Below are positions 1 through 5,762 of a stretch of DNA of 5,762 bases, one piece after another. Numbering within the stretch: the stretch's first letter is position 1; each line of letters opens with the position of its first letter. The position numbers and the translations under genes are program-made. The notes beneath the pieces are model-generated. The model did no database searches. It saw only the letters and a list, made by a program, of their open reading frames with translations, and was not told the origin of the DNA. This stretch comes from Bacteroidia bacterium (GTDB taxonomy: Bacteria; Bacteroidota; Bacteroidia; Cytophagales; Cyclobacteriaceae), in assembly GCA_012031955.1 (NCBI GenBank), contig JAAURZ010000183.1, forward strand, positions 1 to 5,762, read 5' to 3'.

Positions 1-427
1 TCGATGTATTGAGGCTTGCTTGCGCCCGCACTTTGGTGGCGGTCGAACTGGCCAGCAACACATCGCGGTTGAAGATGTTTTGCGTGGCGGTAAATTGCGC
101 CGAAGATGTGTTGTTCACGCCAAACCGTATTACGTTGCCACCGATTATGCTCGACTGCAAGTCAAAGTACCGTTGATAATTATACGTGAAGTTGATTTGC
201 GGATACCAATCGGCAAGCTTACCGCGAATAACGCTGTTGGTGATCTCTTCGTCGGCCTGGGCCTGACGCACAAATGGTTGGTGCTGCAACGCATAGCGTA
301 CCACCGCATCGATGGTGGCCTCTGCCAGCACGCTGTCGGCGTCTGACTGGGCGCGCAGCATGGATGGCGATAGCAGCAGGGTTAGGATAAACCAGCGGAG
401 CCGGTGTTTGGATAGAGTAATAAACAT
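1..427 (-). CDS. TolC-family outer-membrane efflux protein, N-terminal part (cut by left edge)
   Basis: The first 142 codons are visible and the gene runs off the left edge. Residues 1-26 form a signal peptide: basic start with K7, R9 and R11, hydrophobic core WFILTLLL, and a likely cut after LRA before QSDAD. The mature start (EATIDAVVRYALQHQP, then VRQAQADEEITNSVIRGKLADWYPQI) has the helical pattern of TolC-family proteins, followed by a strand-rich stretch with INFTYNY and then FTATQNIFNRDVLLASSTA as the next helix begins. TolC proteins form trimeric outer-membrane channels for RND or ABC exporters, or type I secretion. The gene starts 15 bases after the tetR stop, so the two are probably co-transcribed. 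In Bacteroidota such pairs are often followed by membrane-fusion and RND pump genes, which would lie outside this window. Substrate unknown. The ATG at 427-425 is chosen because it gives an intact signal peptide. Confidence 0.88.
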   Translation of the reverse strand, partial: MFITLSKHRLRWFILTLLLSPSMLRAQSDADSVLAEATIDAVVRYALQHQPFVRQAQADEEITNSVIRGKLADWYPQINFTYNYQRYFDLQSSIIGGNVIRFGVNNTSSAQFTATQNIFNRDVLLASSTATKVRAQASLNTS

Positions 428-442
428 AAGTATAAAAATGGA

Positions 443-1084
443 CTAAGGGTTCGTGTTAAAATTTTCATCGTCAATGTGCGGCATGGGCTCATTGAACACA
501 GTCATAAAGATGACCTGCTTTCTGTCGAGCAAGAACTTTTTGTAGGCCGCTTCAGACATGCAATGGATGGCCTGTATGACGGGCTTCGCCAGCAGTGGGT
601 AGTTGCACATCGCCGACAGGTTAACCATAAAGTGTACGGGCGTGATCGGTGCGAGCCTGCCTGCTTTGATCTCCGCGGCGAGGTCTTCGCGTATCAGGTC
701 GGCCGATTTTTGCCGGTCGCGAAGGCAGAACTCTCTCACCTTCTCGGTATTTCTGGCTGTTTCGTTTATAATAAAATTGTCGAGGTAAGGATAGGTGATG
801 CCGTAGTTCACGATGGTATTAATATAGAGTGCGATTTTCTCGCGAAAGGGCAGCCTCGACGAAAGTATGTTTCTCACCCGTTCCTTCTTCTCCATCAGCG
901 TTTCGTCGAGCAGGGTCTCCAGCAACTGGTCCCTCGAACGAAAGTAGTAATGAATGAGCGCGCGGTTTACCCCCGCCTCGTCGGCAATCTCCTGGGTAGT
1001 CGCATTCAGGAGACCTCGCTGAAAAAAAAGATATTTCGCCTTCTCCTTTATGAGCTCCTCCGTGTGAACTTCCTCGACTCCCAT
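443..1084 (-). CDS. TetR/AcrR-family transcriptional regulator
   Basis: 213 residues, a usual length for TetR repressors. The N-terminal DNA-binding domain is clear: a first helix (EELIKEKAKYLFFQRGLL, residues 9-26), then the helix-turn-helix TTQEIADEAGVNRALIHYYF (residues 29-48), followed by RSRDQLLETLLDE. The rest (about 65-213) is a helical ligand-binding and dimer domain with no recognisable ligand signature. TetR proteins bind as dimers to palindromes near their own promoter and release DNA when a ligand binds. A perfect inverted repeat 14 bases upstream of this start is a fitting target. The tolC-type gene begins 15 bases downstream, so this protein most likely represses itself and an efflux operon, in the manner of AcrR. 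The family call is firm; the control of the efflux genes is inferred from position. Confidence 0.93.
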   Translation of the reverse strand: MGVEEVHTEELIKEKAKYLFFQRGLLNATTQEIADEAGVNRALIHYYFRSRDQLLETLLDETLMEKKERVRNILSSRLPFREKIALYINTIVNYGITYPYLDNFIINETARNTEKVREFCLRDRQKSADLIREDLAAEIKAGRLAPITPVHFMVNLSAMCNYPLLAKPVIQAIHCMSEAAYKKFLLDRKQVIFMTVFNEPMPHIDDENFNTNP

Positions 1085-1098
1085 GGTTTACCTTTTTT

Positions 1099-1118
1099 GT
1101 TTAACAAAATTGTTAAAC
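1099..1118. promoter_or_regulatory. Probable TetR operator: perfect 9-2-9 inverted repeat
   Basis: The 20 bases GTTTAACAAAATTGTTAAAC consist of a 9-base arm, a 2-base centre (AA) and an exact reverse complement of the arm. It ends 14 bases upstream of the tetR ATG. Size, symmetry and place fit a TetR-family operator and autoregulation. On the minus strand it contains CAATTTTG, one mismatch from the Bacteroidota -7 box TANNTTTG, so a bound repressor could cover the promoter; I could not find a well-spaced -33 box. It has no GC-rich stem or U-tract, so a terminator is unlikely. The AAAAAAGG between the repeat and the ATG may help ribosome binding. Confidence 0.7.
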
Positions 1119-1164
1119 GCAAAGAAGTGCCCGCATGGTTCAATCCACCGGAAGAAATTTTCAA

Positions 1165-1833
1165 TTATTTTTCAGCGCCATTTTGCAAACGATTGAACTG
1201 TGATATCGGTTCGCGAAGGATTGTCTTGAGTCGCTCCGGAGGTACGCGCCGAAAGTCGGAAAGATATATTTCGTGATGCAAACCGTTTCGGGTTAACCCA
1301 TTGTTGGTCATAAAGTTTGCGAGCCGACCAAGGGACTTGCCCTCTTCACCGAACGGCCCGGTGTGCAGCACTTGCACGCAAGCACCCTCCATCAACTCAT
1401 GCCAGAGAACGTCTTCCGCCTGACGAAGACTTTTCTTCGTCTTCACGGTTTCAATGGCAAGCGGAAGATCTCCCAACTCGACAAACTCCGGCATCTGTAT
1501 CAGCAGCCGGTATCGCCAATGCGCTCGCGGCACATCACGCGGGGCCGTCTCCATGGACACTCCGCCAAAGCGCTGTTCGTCGAACCACCAAAGCCCTTCG
1601 AGTTTGGGCATTACAAAGTCACAGCCGCGCTGCTTGTTTATAAATTTCACCGCGTAGGCAACCGCATAAAGGCCCTCGACGCGCTGCGAAAACGGGTGGC
1701 CGTCTGGGTCTCCCACGCCTGTGATGGAGAGGTACCTGGTCTTGTCAATGTTGATGAGGTTGGGCGTTGCTCCTGCCCGGTAGTAGTCTCTCCGGGTTTT
1801 GCCCAAATCAGTTTTGGTAGTGGCTGCGATCAT
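1165..1833 (-). CDS. GyrI-like small-molecule-binding protein (COG4832 type)
   Basis: 222 residues, soluble, with no signal peptide. I recognise the GyrI-like (SOUL/BmrR effector-binding) family in its stand-alone long form: TDLGKTRRDYYRAGATPNL (residues 8-26), RYLSITGVGDPDG (33-45), a helix with VEGLYAVAYAVKF, then MPKLEGLWW (75-83), AHWRYRLLIQMPEF (104-117), GACVQVLHTGPF (150-161) and the end motif GLHHEIYLSDFRRVPPERLK (184-203) with TILREPI. The Glu in HEIYLSD sits where effector-binding domains of this fold often place a buried acidic residue; that equivalence is from memory. Some GyrI-like proteins bind cationic drugs, and some have been shown to hydrolyse cyclopropanoid DNA alkylators; no activity can be assigned here. 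It lies 80 bases upstream of tetR on the same strand, which suggests a role in sensing, binding or detoxifying compounds next to the efflux genes. Confidence 0.88.
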   Translation of the reverse strand: MIAATTKTDLGKTRRDYYRAGATPNLINIDKTRYLSITGVGDPDGHPFSQRVEGLYAVAYAVKFINKQRGCDFVMPKLEGLWWFDEQRFGGVSMETAPRDVPRAHWRYRLLIQMPEFVELGDLPLAIETVKTKKSLRQAEDVLWHELMEGACVQVLHTGPFGEEGKSLGRLANFMTNNGLTRNGLHHEIYLSDFRRVPPERLKTILREPISQFNRLQNGAEK

Positions 1834-1846
1834 ACTGGTTTTTGAG

Positions 1847-1854
1847 CAAACCTA
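1847..1854 (-). promoter_or_regulatory. Possible Bacteroidota-type -7 box for the GyrI-like gene
   Basis: On the minus strand the bases read TAGGTTTG, an exact match to the Bacteroidota -7 consensus TANNTTTG, 13 bases upstream of the GyrI-like ATG. This would give a very short leader. A TTG (in ATTGACAC) lies only 14 bases upstream of the box, closer than the usual spacing of a -33 element, so the promoter is uncertain. The 74-base gap between the kinase reading frame as restored (end 1908) and this gene is the only place for a promoter of its own. No hairpin with a U-tract was seen in that gap. Confidence 0.3.
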
Positions 1855-1907
1855 GACCGCGCGAGTGTCAATGGTATGTCAGGAGAAGGGACAAGGAGCG
1901 AAAAAAG

Positions 1908-1963
1908 TTACACGTAACGCGCGATCATATTATAGAGTTCGGCCTCGCTGTATGGCTTTGAAG
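1908..1963 (-). other. Out-of-frame receiver tail of the hybrid kinase
   Basis: In the frame shifted by one base from the kinase, this stretch encodes [17 protein letters not shown] followed by TAA at 1910-1908. It is the canonical end of a receiver domain: the SKP motif with the conserved lysine, then the last amphipathic helix. It follows directly where the in-frame protein stops resembling a receiver (after NDHL). The presence of an intact, stop-free and family-like tail means that the indel is recent or is an error in the sequence. Confidence 0.8.
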
Positions 1964-3217
1964 GTGATCGTTCATACCGGCTTCAAGGCTGCACTGCACA
2001 TCTGTTTTGTATGCATTGGCCGACACCGCGAGGATTGGCCTGCTATAATGCAGGCCTCTGATCTGCCTTGTGGCTTCGTAACCATCCATTTCGGGCATTT
2101 GAATGTCCATGAGCACAAAGTCGAATTCGCGTTCTTGTATCTTGGCAACTGCCTCCACGCCATTTTCCGCAGTGATAACGAATCCTCCAAACCGTTCTAC
2201 CATGGATTTGGCAACCATCAGGTTGATGGGATTGTCGTCAACGATCAACACACTCATCGACTTGGCGAAGTGCAGATCCGGGCCGGCATCGCCATTCGTG
2301 TGTGACCGCTGGACCTCTGGCATTAAGCCGAGGTTGACCTCGAAGGTAAAAGTCGTACCATGATTATGTTGTTCACAATTACTGGTTACATCTACCTTGC
2401 CGCCCATAAGCGTAACAAGATTCTTTACGATGCTGAGACCAAGACCTGTGCCTCCGAATTTTCGTGTGATGGAATTGTCTGCCTGGGTGAAGCTGTCGAA
2501 GACGACCACGCGCTTCGCCTCGGGAATGCCGATGCCTGTGTCTGTAATCTGGCCCTGCAGCACAAGGTGGTCGTCGGCACGTTCGCGCACGCGGAGAGCA
2601 AGTTCAATCGAGCCCCTTGGTGTAAATTTCAAGGCATTGCCTACCAGGTTGTTCACAATCTGCAAGAGACGGCCGGCGTCGCCAATCACCTTGGATGGCA
2701 CTCGGGAGTCGACCATCGTACTGAACGTGAGGCCGCGCTGCTTGGCGAGCAACATGTAGCGCTGCGTTTCCTTGTTGACCAATTCGATGAGATCGAAAGG
2801 CTCGTGTGCAAGTTCCAGTTTTCCACTTTCAATTTTGCTCACGTCAAGTATGTCGTTGATGAGTTCCAGCAAGTTCAGCCCGGAACGTTCCATGAGGCCC
2901 GCGTAGTCCTCGGCGGTGGCACTGAGGGTCTCACGTTTCAAGAGTTGGAGCAAGCCCAGGATGCCATTCAACGGGGTCCTTATCTCGTGGCTCATGTTGG
3001 CGAGGAACTGGCTCTTCGCTTTGCTGGCTTCCTCGGCCAACTCTTTCGCGATCTTCAGTTGGTTGCGCTCGAATTCAAGTTCTTTTCGCGACGCTACCGT
3101 CTGCTCGAGTTCGTCGCCCAGGAGGTTAATACCGGTGGCTATTGCATCCCATATATTGCCGTTGTCGGAGATAGGTAATTTTCGTTTAAAGTCGAGATTG
3201 GTATACGAGCTTATCAC
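1925..3217 (-). CDS. Soluble hybrid histidine kinase (HisKA-HATPase_c-REC), receiver end frameshifted
   Basis: 430 residues as read, from a GTG start that overlaps the previous stop (GTGA). Order: HAMP-like module (about 8-39), coiled coil (about 36-70), HisKA with [15 protein letters not shown] (phospho-acceptor H77), HATPase_c with N-box [10 protein letters not shown] (N194), G1 DTGIGIP (D226) and G2 GGTGLGLSI (255-263), then a receiver domain with acidic pair D327/D328, phospho-acceptor D371 in [10 protein letters not shown], and S399 in AVSANA. No transmembrane segment or PAS domain, so it is cytosolic and probably receives its signal from a partner protein. After GMNDHL the frame is lost: it reads [11 protein letters not shown] and stops, without the conserved receiver lysine. 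One added base at about 1961-1964 would give [18 protein letters not shown] with the stop at 1908. Either a sequence error or a real mutation that weakens the receiver. No DNA-binding output domain. Kinase call is firm; its signal is unknown. Confidence 0.93.
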
Positions 3218-3456
3218 TCGATAAAAGTATCGACGGTTGCTTGCTGGTCGAACTCGTGGGCATTCGGATCGACCTGCATCTTGTCGGCAAACTTATTGAG
3301 GTTGTCGGCGATTTGAGTCGCGAGGTCCTCTTCGTAGTCGGTAATGATTCGCCGGGAGTAATCTCCTTGCAGAAGCGCCCCTGTGAAATCGAGTATCTTG
3401 GTCAGCAACTCTACAGGTACTTGCACGGTGTCGGATTTTGATGTTATTGCACGCAT
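3214..3456 (-). CDS. Small HAMP-like helical module, likely N-terminal part of the kinase
   Basis: 80 residues from the ATG at 3456; a TTG 15 bases earlier is also open but less likely. Predominantly helical and acidic, with no signal peptide. Residues 31-61 ([10 protein letters not shown], then [16 protein letters not shown]) resemble residues 8-39 of the following kinase ([13 protein letters not shown], then [16 protein letters not shown]): both have an aromatic, a basic pair, an IA-x-x-I/L-N core and an acidic end. Such repeats occur as HAMP-like signal helices at the N-termini of soluble Bacteroidota kinases. The stop overlaps the kinase start (GTGA), so translation is at least coupled. 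The end VDTFIE would join the kinase start [10 protein letters not shown] as one smooth helix if one G were added (GAG-GTG-ATA). It could be a separate small partner of the kinase, or an artefact of a frameshift in one longer gene. Confidence 0.6.
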
Positions 3457-3474
3457 AGCACTTAAAGGCAAAGC

Positions 3475-3879
3475 TCAGGATTTCAGATCAGTTGTTTCCG
3501 GTTGCAGCGCCAGAATCCATTGTATGGCATCTTCCTTGCGCGAAAAAAATCGAGCGGGAAATTCCTTCGGACCTTTCACAAAGATGTTTGCAATAAGGGC
3601 AGCCAGGGGGTTTGACGCGATTAATGCAGCCGCTACAATATTTTTAAGACCGCCGTCTGCTCGTTGCATGTACTCTTTGGCTTCCGTGGTCATATGCTTT
3701 ACCAACGACATATCGGCAACCAGCAAGTGCATCTTGTTTTGAGTGAACTCAAGCCGGCTTGCCACGATGGCCTTTGCTGTTGCCAGGTCCACCGATACGG
3801 CGTGCCTGAACTCGGCATAGACCAGGTTGCCCTGCCCAAGCCGGGCATAAATTACCATGGGATATTCCCTTATTTCCAT
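3475..3879 (-). CDS. STAS/SpoIIAA-like small protein, second paralogue
   Basis: 134 residues from the ATG at 3879; a TTG 18 bases upstream is rejected because the ATG aligns with the start of the neighbouring paralogue and leaves a natural 4-base gap. Landmarks: DLATAKAIVASRLEF (31-45), a buried strand HLLVADMSLV (51-60), TTEAKEYM (64-71), GGLKNIVAAALIASNPLAALIANIF (76-100, long small-residue helix), then FPARFFSRKEDAIQWI (108-122). Alternating strands and helices suggest the STAS/SpoIIAA-like fold; I recall such proteins in Bacteroidota as STAS/SEC14-type or DUF7793 proteins. STAS proteins usually act as non-enzymatic switches that bind or are phosphorylated by partner kinases. Its position, 18 bases before the kinase module, suggests a regulatory partner of that kinase. 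The paralogy is seen directly; the role is inferred. Confidence 0.82.
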   Translation of the reverse strand: MEIREYPMVIYARLGQGNLVYAEFRHAVSVDLATAKAIVASRLEFTQNKMHLLVADMSLVKHMTTEAKEYMQRADGGLKNIVAAALIASNPLAALIANIFVKGPKEFPARFFSRKEDAIQWILALQPETTDLKS

Positions 3880-3883
3880 AGCT

Positions 3884-4291
3884 TCAAGCGAATTCAAGTT
3901 TTTCTATTCTAATTTTCTGCAGCCACACCAGCGCGTCAACTCTATTTGTAAAGAACTTCGCCGGCACAACCGGAGGACTGACTTTTAGGAAGAGGTTGAT
4001 AAACAGTGTCGCCACTACGTTGGCAGAAAGAAAAGCCCCACCCAACACACCTTTCAATCCTCCATCGGGGCTGTTCATATAGTCTCTCGCCTCTTTTGTG
4101 ACGGATTTCACATTTGTAAAATCAATCAGCACGTACATAGGCTTGCCGTCACAGAACTCGAGTCTGCTTCTGATAAGCTCGTGGGCGATGTCCAGCGTTA
4201 TTTCAAGTTTGCTGGCGTATGCGCTGAACAACACGTCCGGGTGTTCGTCGTTGGTCCAGATTGTGATATATTTAAAACTCTGCTTTTTCAT
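3884..4291 (-). CDS. STAS/SpoIIAA-like small protein, first paralogue
   Basis: 135 residues; the ATG overlaps the stop of the upstream synthase gene (ATGA), so translation is likely coupled. Clearly paralogous to the next gene: LDIAHELIRSRLEF (33-46), MYVLIDFTNVKSVTKEARDYM (52-72), GGLKGVLGGAFLSANVVATLFI (77-98), VPAKFFTNRVDALVWLQK (109-126). Shared positions include SRLEF, the D after the central strand, T-x-EA-[RK]-[DE]-YM, DGGLK, and P-A-[RK]-FF. The hydrophobic stretch at about 83-103 is more likely a buried helix than a membrane segment, as it fits the family pattern. No catalytic residues or enzyme motif are visible. It may sense or tether the product of the upstream enzyme, or switch the kinase; both are inference. 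Confidence 0.83.
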   Translation of the reverse strand: MKKQSFKYITIWTNDEHPDVLFSAYASKLEITLDIAHELIRSRLEFCDGKPMYVLIDFTNVKSVTKEARDYMNSPDGGLKGVLGGAFLSANVVATLFINLFLKVSPPVVPAKFFTNRVDALVWLQKIRIEKLEFA

Positions 4292-5762
4292 TTGGCGTAG
4301 TTCACCTGCTGAAACTTATTGAGCGATTCGAACTTGTAATTGTCGTCTGCCTGTATGTACACCGACTTGTGAACGAGCCTCGTGCCGAACTTGCGCTTTT
4401 CAACATCTGCTCCGAACCCGAAAAACAACTTATTGCACTTCAAGTCCGCAGCGCGCTTCACGGTTTGAAAAAGCAACTGCCTGTATACGCCGTATGTTTC
4501 ATTGAACCGGTAATTGAGACCAATCAAGAGCGGGATATAATTATTGCCCGGCGACCGATAGCCGATGCCGAACGCCACCGGGCCTTCATGATTGCTCTCG
4601 TTAAGTGTGAGTTCGATTATCTCCCAGCCGCCGAACATACCCAGGTTACTGAAGAACTTGCGAGGCAATTCGAAAGTGTTCATTTCAAACCCACGGTTCT
4701 TTACCTGCATGTACAAAGCATACTTCTGGTCGACGGTGGATTCGGCAATAGATCCATTCACTTTCACGGAAAAAAGTGGTTCGTTGGCGAGAATGTTACG
4801 CCGCAAGTGGACCCGCGACTTGGGCGACAGCCGGGGGATGAGTTCTTCCGTCGTGCTCCAGTTCAGGTCATCGATCACATGGTCGTTGAACATATCGGAG
4901 CGGATAAATCCTTCGGTAGCGAGGAAATCGCGAAGCTCAATATCGTCCGTATTAAAGTCCCTGAGTAAGATCATGGTGGCACCCGAACTCCGCTTCACAT
5001 CATTCATGATGCGCACCATGTTCAACAAAGCCTTTTTCCAATCTGATGACGTCCTGTCAAGAAAAAGGTGTTCTCCCAAACTCAGCAACGATCCGAGCAT
5101 CACTACTTTGGAAGTGAGGTGGTACCGGTCGTTCAGTCTTATATCTTCAATCTGCCTTGAAACATCGGCGGGCGCAATCATGTCGTCCTTGCACATGAGT
5201 TCCGAAAAGAACGTGGCCAACACAGGCTTCGATTCATGATCGCGGATTATCAGGTAATGCATGTTCCAGTTGTTCTCCGGCTGCGGGTTATTCTTGAAAG
5301 TCTGCTCTATAAACCGGCATCCCTCCCAGTCAAATGTACCGCGGTCGGCAAGCAAACTGTTCCAAAGCTCTTTGTCTATCCTTTCGATGGTTGTTTCATG
5401 CTGTACCGTAAGCGAACCTTTCCTGCCGGCGGGCGCGTCAAGTCCTGCGTAGCGGCTGGCAGTAGCGTCGAACGACATGTTGAAGTTCTGGCTGATGTCT
5501 TCTACTGTTTGATTCTCCTCTTCCAGCACGCGCGGGAAGTGATAGTGAAATGCTTCGAGCACATTCTTTATGTCGTCGTCGGTTTGGCCGTTGGTAATGG
5601 CAAGCCTGAGCCCGCAACACTTCACGGGTACACCCGGGAAGATACCGATGTTGGTATAAAACCCTTCATTCAACAACCGCTTCACCATGTTATAACCAAC
5701 ACGCGGTAGTCCCAGGCCAATGTAAAATATCGGTGAATCGGAAGGCAGCACCAAGGGCAGGT
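4288..5762 (-). CDS. PLP-dependent alpha-oxoamine-synthase-like / GNAT acyltransferase fusion, C-terminal part (cut by right edge)
   Basis: The frame is open to the right edge, so the true start lies outside; the TTG at 5754 is not a real start. Residues below count from that TTG. Residues about 6-72 match the small C-terminal domain of class II aminotransferase-fold alpha-oxoamine synthases (AONS, KBL, serine palmitoyltransferase): SPIFYIGLGLP, VKRLLNEGFYTNIGIFPGVP (24-43), then GLRLAITNGQTDDDIKNVLEAF (48-69) with the conserved substrate-binding arginine R50. The PLP lysine must be off the window. After a linker (about 75-115), residues about 120-480 form a large acyltransferase of the GNAT/FemAB-like (Acetyltransf_6) kind: SPKSRVHLRRNI (310-321), YMQVKNRGFEM (348-358), YIPLLIGLNY (406-415), VYRQLLFQTVKRAADLKCNKLFFGFG (423-448), KRKFGTR (453-459). 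The fusion could make and then N-acylate an amino-ketone, as in sphingolipid-like synthesis, or an acyl signal. Fold assignments are good; product unknown. Confidence 0.82.
   Translation of the reverse strand, partial: LPLVLPSDSPIFYIGLGLPRVGYNMVKRLLNEGFYTNIGIFPGVPVKCCGLRLAITNGQTDDDIKNVLEAFHYHFPRVLEEENQTVEDISQNFNMSFDATASRYAGLDAPAGRKGSLTVQHETTIERIDKELWNSLLADRGTFDWEGCRFIEQTFKNNPQPENNWNMHYLIIRDHESKPVLATFFSELMCKDDMIAPADVSRQIEDIRLNDRYHLTSKVVMLGSLLSLGEHLFLDRTSSDWKKALLNMVRIMNDVKRSSGATMILLRDFNTDDIELRDFLATEGFIRSDMFNDHVIDDLNWSTTEELIPRLSPKSRVHLRRNILANEPLFSVKVNGSIAESTVDQKYALYMQVKNRGFEMNTFELPRKFFSNLGMFGGWEIIELTLNESNHEGPVAFGIGYRSPGNNYIPLLIGLNYRFNETYGVYRQLLFQTVKRAADLKCNKLFFGFGADVEKRKFGTRLVHKSVYIQADDNYKFESLNKFQQVNYAK

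Follow-up and report, generated by a model that had tools for sequence, protein, structure and literature searches.

The described systems closest to the locus reported here are Cqs and Lqs (CqsA/CqsS and LqsA/LqsS), in which an alpha-oxoamine-type synthase dependent on pyridoxal phosphate (PLP) is found with a histidine kinase, and in which the kinases CqsS and LqsS have six membrane helices according to the accessible part of the source (PMC3376566). The present locus lies on contig JAAURZ010000183.1 of a Bacteroidia bacterium, and was analysed as a single stretch of 5,762 nucleotides (the window). It contains a synthase of the alpha-oxoamine type fused to a GNAT-like domain, two small proteins of the family DUF7793, and a hybrid histidine kinase that carries a soluble HAMP-like module. 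Across relatives, the synthase-GNAT fusion is nearly always found beside DUF7793, and DUF7793 is in turn tightly linked to soluble regulators bearing this module. We read the locus, with confidence about evenly balanced for and against, as a cytosolic biosynthesis-and-control operon in which DUF7793 and the HAMP-module regulator form the core and the synthase is a client.

The linkage of synthase and DUF7793 was followed in twelve loci from named genomes (L001-L012), all Bacteroidota, and in a class-wide sample of 395 genomes. In 11 of the 12 named loci, one to four DUF7793 genes come after the synthase and are read in its direction. A module-bearing kinase comes after DUF7793 in ten of these eleven (L001-L010), and lies just upstream of the synthase in the other (L011). 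In L012, DUF7793 is divergent from the synthase and is accompanied by an AraC regulator. A full synthase was defined in the class-wide sample as the fusion scoring above 170 bits, which gave 42 copies in 34 genomes (two pieces in G204 were counted as one copy). Only weak matches (<70 bits, ORFs, i.e. open reading frames, of 390-491 residues with the GNAT part) were present in 46 of the 80 genomes matching the synthase profile, and these were excluded. DUF7793 occurs within 1 kb of at least 38 of the 42 copies, against a chance expectation of ~0.6%, given 161 DUF7793 matches over 119.2 Mb. Among the matches listed, 32 are divergent and upstream, five are co-directional and downstream, and one is downstream on the opposite strand. 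Four of the 42 copies have no DUF7793 within 1 kb among these matches, two of them at contig ends (G001:C232 and G002:C51), and none was found in the 18 kb around the synthases of G056 and G316:C299. All 34 synthase genomes contain DUF7793, compared with 182 of the 395 genomes overall and 148 of the 361 without a full synthase; none was found in 14 control genomes.

The original prediction proposed surveying Bacteroidota for conserved co-occurrence of these genes, and the survey bears it out: synthase, STAS-like proteins and a cytosolic regulator are linked across relatives. The scenario in which the genes are adjacent only in this genome fails. The further scenario, that the parts live apart in relatives, applies to one side of the set, as DUF7793 is often present without the synthase but the synthase is rarely found without DUF7793 nearby. 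A quick tree of 39 synthase sequences was built without bootstrap, with regulator states assigned by hand from domain scans. This tree implies a minimum of two changes of arrangement (counting only rows with a state) and of six changes of regulator output (26 of the 39 rows have an assigned output), with the set kept together.

Two further observations concern the neighbourhoods of these genes. At L116:6172-6681 a synthase fragment of 169 residues, comprising the start of the PLP domain, is divergent to an intact DUF7793 gene and a module-bearing regulator (L116:6845-8283), a layout suggestive of synthase loss with retention of the sensor unit. In two scanned loci (L012:4919-5362 and L071:12120-13658) the gene after the AraC-type regulator encodes a MauE-type (methylamine utilisation) protein, and ORFs of 495-508 residues occupy the MauE-type place in L064, L092, L086 and L116.

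The regulators beside DUF7793 mostly begin with a common soluble stretch of ~60-75 residues. A hidden Markov model of this module, built from seven HisKA_3-type N-termini and applied to 729 ORFs with an E limit of 10, identified 35 distinct ORFs (28 outside the building set, highest E 3.4e-4), including AraC and HisKA-REC proteins. All but one of the 35 adjoin a DUF7793 gene, and the remaining one is two genes away. This adjacency is partly by design, because the loci (32 of whose ORFs fall in two duplicate loci) were picked around synthase or DUF7793 genes; the test of linkage is the genome-wide one. Genome-wide, alignment A5 gave 41 module matches in 30 of 33 synthase genomes and 18 matches in 13 of 20 DUF7793-positive genomes without a full synthase, and none in 20 DUF7793-negative genomes. 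The 20 synthase-negative genomes were picked from the 148, mostly for strong DUF7793 matches, and at least one of them (G371, among the 13 with the module) carries a synthase cut by a contig end. Among the matches listed, a DUF7793 gene lies at most 1.5 kb from 48 of the 59 module matches, sharing the strand in 44 cases and at most 100 bases away in 29; some of the 59 are loci from which A5 was built. These distance counts understate the linkage, because they are based on the DUF7793 matches listed. In a phylum-wide draw the module was present in 12 of 296 genomes at E up to 1e-8. A module match is also present at 31 of the 39 synthase loci of the tree.

The outputs behind the module are varied, and comprise HisKA-REC, HisKA, HisKA_2, HisKA_3 with a NarL-type response regulator, and AraC. 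No membrane helix was indicated by hydropathy in 12 regulators from other loci, the window parts and two relatives (maximum 1.35). Since the regulators have no membrane segment, sensing would be intracellular. At L112:5245-7481, in a genome without a synthase match, a kinase with two tandem copies of the module lies beside two DUF7793 genes. In three other loci (L110:6523-8399, L111:6718-8595 and L117:4951-6824), DUF7793 and a short module-bearing kinase adjoin an apparent response-regulator gene (by eye). The kinase of L110, the one scanned of the three, is of the HisKA_2 type, and no synthase is among the ORFs shown at these loci, hinting at other clients of the DUF7793-module unit.

In the window (Table 1), the stop of the synthase and the start of the first DUF7793 gene overlap as ATGA (4288-4291). 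The stop of the first DUF7793 gene lies 4 bases before the ATG at 3879, that of the second 18 bases before the ATG at 3456, and a GTGA overlap connects the 85-residue ORF and the kinase ORF at 3214-3217. This last overlap is a frame break rather than an operon junction, because the closest relative of the kinase, P0242, spans both ORFs as one protein of 516 residues. Its residues 1-80 align to residues 6-85 of the 85-residue ORF at 90% identity, and its residues 81-500 to the kinase ORF at 88%, with a gapless junction. The 85-residue ORF was considered as a fifth protein and ruled out, since relatives carry this part and the kinase as one gene. A single ORF matches both parts in eight of the ten loci L001-L010; the kinase ORFs of L004 and L009 have a leading stretch of similar length to the 85-residue part, with no significant match to it. 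Other relatives found by the kinase N-terminus (n=30) are 460-646 residues long. The single ORF of a relative matches three consecutive pieces of the window, each in another frame (3456-3217, 3238-1958 and 1958-1917). The third piece is short and weakly matched (E 1.5 for L003 and 0.24 for L010), and by eye the C-terminal end of P0242 resembles this third frame. The two breaks in the window copy represent either assembly errors or a decaying gene, with intact copies held by relatives. A comparable split of the kinase is seen in L066 (131 and 277 residues).

The operon is genuine in its spacing on one strand, as originally predicted, but its five packed frames are four genes. The prediction of two STAS-like proteins is supported, as both belong to DUF7793 and the first has a predicted STAS-like fold, and so is that of a soluble hybrid kinase. 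HisKA, HATPase_c and REC are all present in the window kinase, and no membrane helix was indicated in its parts or in the 516-residue relative (top 19-residue Kyte-Doolittle mean 1.12-1.32). The synthase is of the predicted PLP type, specifically alpha-oxoamine with GNAT, but is cut by the window edge, so that of the PLP domain only some 72 C-terminal residues remain, together with the GNAT-like domain. No tRNA and no Rfam match over the gathering score were found in the window. Sigma-70-like sites between 1800 and 5762 number 5, compared with 3.2 expected, and terminator-like sites 2, compared with 4.2 expected, neither count being informative. Downstream on the same strand, positions 2-1833 hold an apparently separate efflux-type gene group.

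Table 1. Features of contig JAAURZ010000183.1, window 1-5762
Feature	Positions	Strand	Remarks
Genes of the operon	1908-5762	minus	
Synthase ORF	4288-5760	minus	490 C-terminal residues; gene continues past window end 5762
C-terminal end of PLP (alpha-oxoamine synthase) domain	5545-5760	minus	contains the Arg that is residue 377 of P0003
GNAT-like (Acetyltransf_6) domain of synthase	4393-4743	minus	ORF residues 340-456
First DUF7793 protein	3884-4291	minus	135 residues; predicted STAS/SpoIIAA-like fold
Second DUF7793 protein	3475-3897	minus	ORF of 140 residues (134 from ATG at 3879); PF25056
Hybrid histidine-kinase gene	1908-3471	minus	one gene, three frames in this copy; breaks at ~3214-3217 and ~1958
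First kinase part	3214-3471	minus	85-residue ORF with first HAMP-like stretch (by eye)
Kinase ORF	1925-3217	minus	430 residues
HAMP-like module	3074-3217	minus	start of 430-residue kinase ORF; common to regulators beside DUF7793
HisKA	2822-3019	minus	ORF residues 67-132; 78.6 bits
HATPase_c	2330-2683	minus	ORF residues 179-296; 95.7 bits
REC	1908-2251	minus	ORF residues 323-420; 84.6 bits; last residues in other frame, stop 1908-1910
GyrI-like ligand-binding protein	1165-1833	minus	
TetR-family regulator	443-1084	minus	
TolC-type outer membrane efflux protein (start)	2-427	minus	

The synthase part in the window matches Pfam PF13480 (GNAT) at 23.5 bits (cut-off 22), and its residues 6-72 weakly match the C-terminal end of the NCBIfam models for serine palmitoyltransferase (SPT) and Kbl. 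Close relatives share 65-71% identity, are mostly 801-822 residues long and carry PF00155; full-length relatives in general are ~800-840 residues long. Lys 250, His 136, His 139, Asp 217 and Arg 377 (P0003 numbering) are invariant in all 38 full-length relatives, and presumably occupy the places of the PLP and substrate residues of the alpha-oxoamine synthase family. Membership in that family is supported in the relatives by residues and fold, and the window itself holds only the Arg-bearing C-terminal part. The structure model has a pLDDT of 83.1 and a pTM of 0.52, and the nearest solved structures by profile and fold are Alb29 (28% identity), BioF, ThAOS, Kbl and SPT. Alb29 forms aminoketones from L-glutamate and acyl-CoAs, as stated in the accessible part of its description (PMC11906848). 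Four full-length synthases score below the cut-off of the NCBIfam models SPT, Kbl, BioF, ALAS and CqsA/LqsA. Their best match, also below cut-off, is the subfamily PRK07505 ('hypothetical protein'). One SPT model was controlled with Spt of E. coli BL21, which scores 599.2 (cut-off 500).

The GNAT part gave one chance-level match (E 0.42) when compared by sequence with solved structures. In the 10-14 kb surrounding 14 standalone GNAT relatives (398-443 residues) no other ORF matches the synthase profile, and for this reason there is no split-gene evidence for the fusion. Taken together, the fold and the fusion suggest that the enzyme probably joins an amino acid to an acyl thioester by condensation before carrying out an N-acylation. 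A fusion of SPT with a ceramide N-acyltransferase was considered and rejected, as the SPT models score below cut-off and YghO, a candidate N-acyltransferase of E. coli BL21, shows no relation to the GNAT part in a single-sequence comparison. The sphingolipid idea is retained only in the general sense of a probable lipid-like product.

Both small proteins belong to DUF7793 (PF25056), with scores of 98.6 and, for the second, 77.4 bits (cut-off 26). For the second protein, the best match in L002, L003, L005, L008 and L010 is likewise a second DUF7793 gene, at the corresponding position. The predicted structure of DUF7793 has the STAS/SpoIIAA alpha/beta fold. Its top Foldseek match is 2q3l, and identity to 2q3l and 2ook is 16-20%. 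According to the accessible part of the report on 2q3l, it and a second SpoIIAA-like protein have been proposed as binders of nonpolar ligands and membranes (PMC2954212). In the window proteins the most hydrophobic stretch begins at residues 82 and 87, and runs into the region modelled with least certainty (residues 91-110). The second helix starts with Thr or Ser in 51 of 54 close relatives; at the same position family-wide, 42 of 83 distinct sequences have Thr or Ser, 31 have Asp or Glu and 5 have Asn. DUF7793 is strongly multiplied in some genomes, with 20 matches in G001 (the genome containing L001), 12 in G004, 18 in G373 and 17 in G110, and tandem arrays of four to six occur in some (L001:1898-3567; L075).

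The biosynthesis-and-control reading regards the synthase as a client of the DUF7793-module unit, because the module tracks DUF7793, and DUF7793 often occurs without the synthase. The simplest account of this tracking is that DUF7793 and the module are probably partners by direct contact. The STAS-like DUF7793 would then be a detachable input subunit, which may bind a hydrophobic ligand or sense acyl or membrane state, and which would dock on the HAMP-like module and so set the attached output. That output is a hybrid kinase here and a kinase with a NarL-type regulator, or an AraC regulator, elsewhere, and would control the expression or activity of the synthase. The synthase, in turn, would perform the condensation of amino acid and acyl thioester, and would probably N-acylate the resulting alpha-aminoketone to yield a lipid-like product. 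Feedback by the product is possible, but unnecessary to the model.

Several observations weigh against this account. Four of the 39 synthase loci in the tree have no DUF7793 match and eight have no module match, while 11 of the 59 genome-wide module matches are not near DUF7793 among the matches listed. The module fails the Pfam HAMP test (PF00672), with a best score of 22.0 bits in L092 against a gathering score of 25; sub-threshold HAMP is also seen in L061 (19.7) and L089 (19.0), and no HAMP match is listed in the Pfam scan of the window ORFs. The co-directional order seen in the window is, except for L089, that of one clade of the synthase tree. A search of 23 divergent synthase-DUF7793 spacers (L012 and L087 being the same locus) for a common inverted-repeat operator found none: the top dyad occurs in 5 of the 23, compared with 4-7 in shuffles. 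No conserved phospho-acceptor was found family-wide among the 83 distinct DUF7793 sequences. Lastly, comparison of the GNAT part with one YghO sequence gave an hhalign probability of 0.2%, in a single-sequence comparison of low reach.

Other explanations of the gene set differ chiefly in what DUF7793 is taken to do. The synthase could make a signal that is bound inside the cell by DUF7793 or by the HAMP/PAS part, whereupon the regulator would induce the synthase, closing a positive loop. Such production and sensing would fit the pairing of one enzyme with a dedicated sensor unit, beside which the ORF maps show by eye no further recurrent neighbour, and also the divergent promoter regions between the two in 32 of the 42 copies among the matches listed. 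Precedents are found in the SpoIIAA-like relatives proposed to hold nonpolar ligands and in the pairing of an alpha-oxoamine-type synthase with a kinase in Cqs and Lqs (accessible parts of PMC2954212 and PMC3376566). However, the sensor unit is far commoner than the synthase: DUF7793 is found in 148 of 361 genomes without a full synthase, and the module in 13 of the 20 picked from these, counting the one (G371) with a synthase cut by a contig end. A self-induced signal appears possible, but the smaller chance. Direct action of the STAS-like proteins on the synthase, for example by docking an acyl-carrier protein or holding a hydrophobic product while the regulator merely tunes expression, is a distinctly unlikely arrangement, as it leaves unexplained why module regulators track DUF7793 where the synthase is absent.

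A classical partner switch, in which DUF7793 is phosphorylated on Ser or Thr and sequesters or releases a kinase-like partner in the manner of SpoIIAA/RsbV, is suggested by its predicted STAS fold. The Thr/Ser at the start of the second helix in close relatives falls in the region of the SpoIIAA phosphosite, although the register is not proven, and the accessible part of PMC7367683 reports that STAS proteins have a conserved Ser/Thr. Family-wide, however, the residues at this position follow the usual pattern of a helix N-cap, and the test for a SpoIIAB/RsbW-type partner failed, the scanned neighbours being HisKA-HATPase_c-REC, HisKA_3, HisKA_2, HisKA or AraC. This mechanism is accordingly considered very unlikely. 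It is also conceivable that the genes share an inherited neighbourhood without functional coupling, since all named loci and samples come from one phylum. This explanation is already disfavoured and hardly credible: the L012 synthase, only 34% identical, retains an adjoining DUF7793 in another orientation, and both arrangement and regulator output changed along the synthase tree.

If the coupling between DUF7793 and the module is real, histidine kinases and AraC regulators would have a route for taking input from a soluble STAS-type sensor, and the coupling would point towards a new self-made signal or regulated lipid in Bacteroidota. DUF7793, a family of unknown function present in 182 of the 395 class genomes, gains a concrete candidate partner in the HAMP-like N-terminus of the neighbouring regulator. 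Attention is also drawn to a fused enzyme, so far uncharacterised, with a product probably linked to gene control. A bolder and rather doubtful extension is that the soluble HAMP-module regulators of Bacteroidota form a whole class served by DUF7793, which would act as a lipid-binding sensor subunit that can detach (a STAS/CRAL-TRIO-like carrier). At synthase loci the ligand of DUF7793 would be the N-acyl-aminoketone made by the cell itself, an intracellular lipid signal measured and controlled through one input module that leads into kinase, two-component or AraC outputs.

Compared with known proteins, the components of this set are related by fold but stand apart. Alb29, SPT, SulA/CFAT, Kbl and BioF share the fold of the window synthase family, which is distinguished by its C-terminal GNAT fusion and its sub-cut-off scores. 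SpoIIAA/RsbV and the stressosome STAS proteins resemble DUF7793 in fold only; DUF7793 is a separate Pfam family that adjoins a HAMP-module histidine kinase or AraC, and is without the family-wide phospho-acceptor. For the Shewanella SpoIIAA-like proteins (DUF3478) 2q3l and 2ook, no regulator partner is mentioned in the accessible part of their description. The sole solved chain clearly matching DUF7793 in sequence (E 1.2e-8) is 3bl4, the uncharacterised Arth_0117 of Arthrobacter, which overlays poorly on the DUF7793 model (TM 0.27-0.35). The likeness to Cqs and Lqs in the original prediction extends to the enzyme superfamily and the presence of a kinase partner, but not to membership. Four full-length synthase relatives, scored in place of a window fragment too short for the purpose, reach 69.0-77.7 bits with the CqsA/LqsA model NF005526 (cut-off 428), and the window kinase is soluble where CqsS and LqsS have six membrane helices. 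The claim that no such system has been described agrees with the literature searched, from which most subscription papers were outside coverage and which holds no description of DUF7793 or of the gene set. The set, with its GNAT-fused synthase and STAS-like proteins, appears to be a so far undescribed means by which a cell controls, and may also sense, one of its own products.

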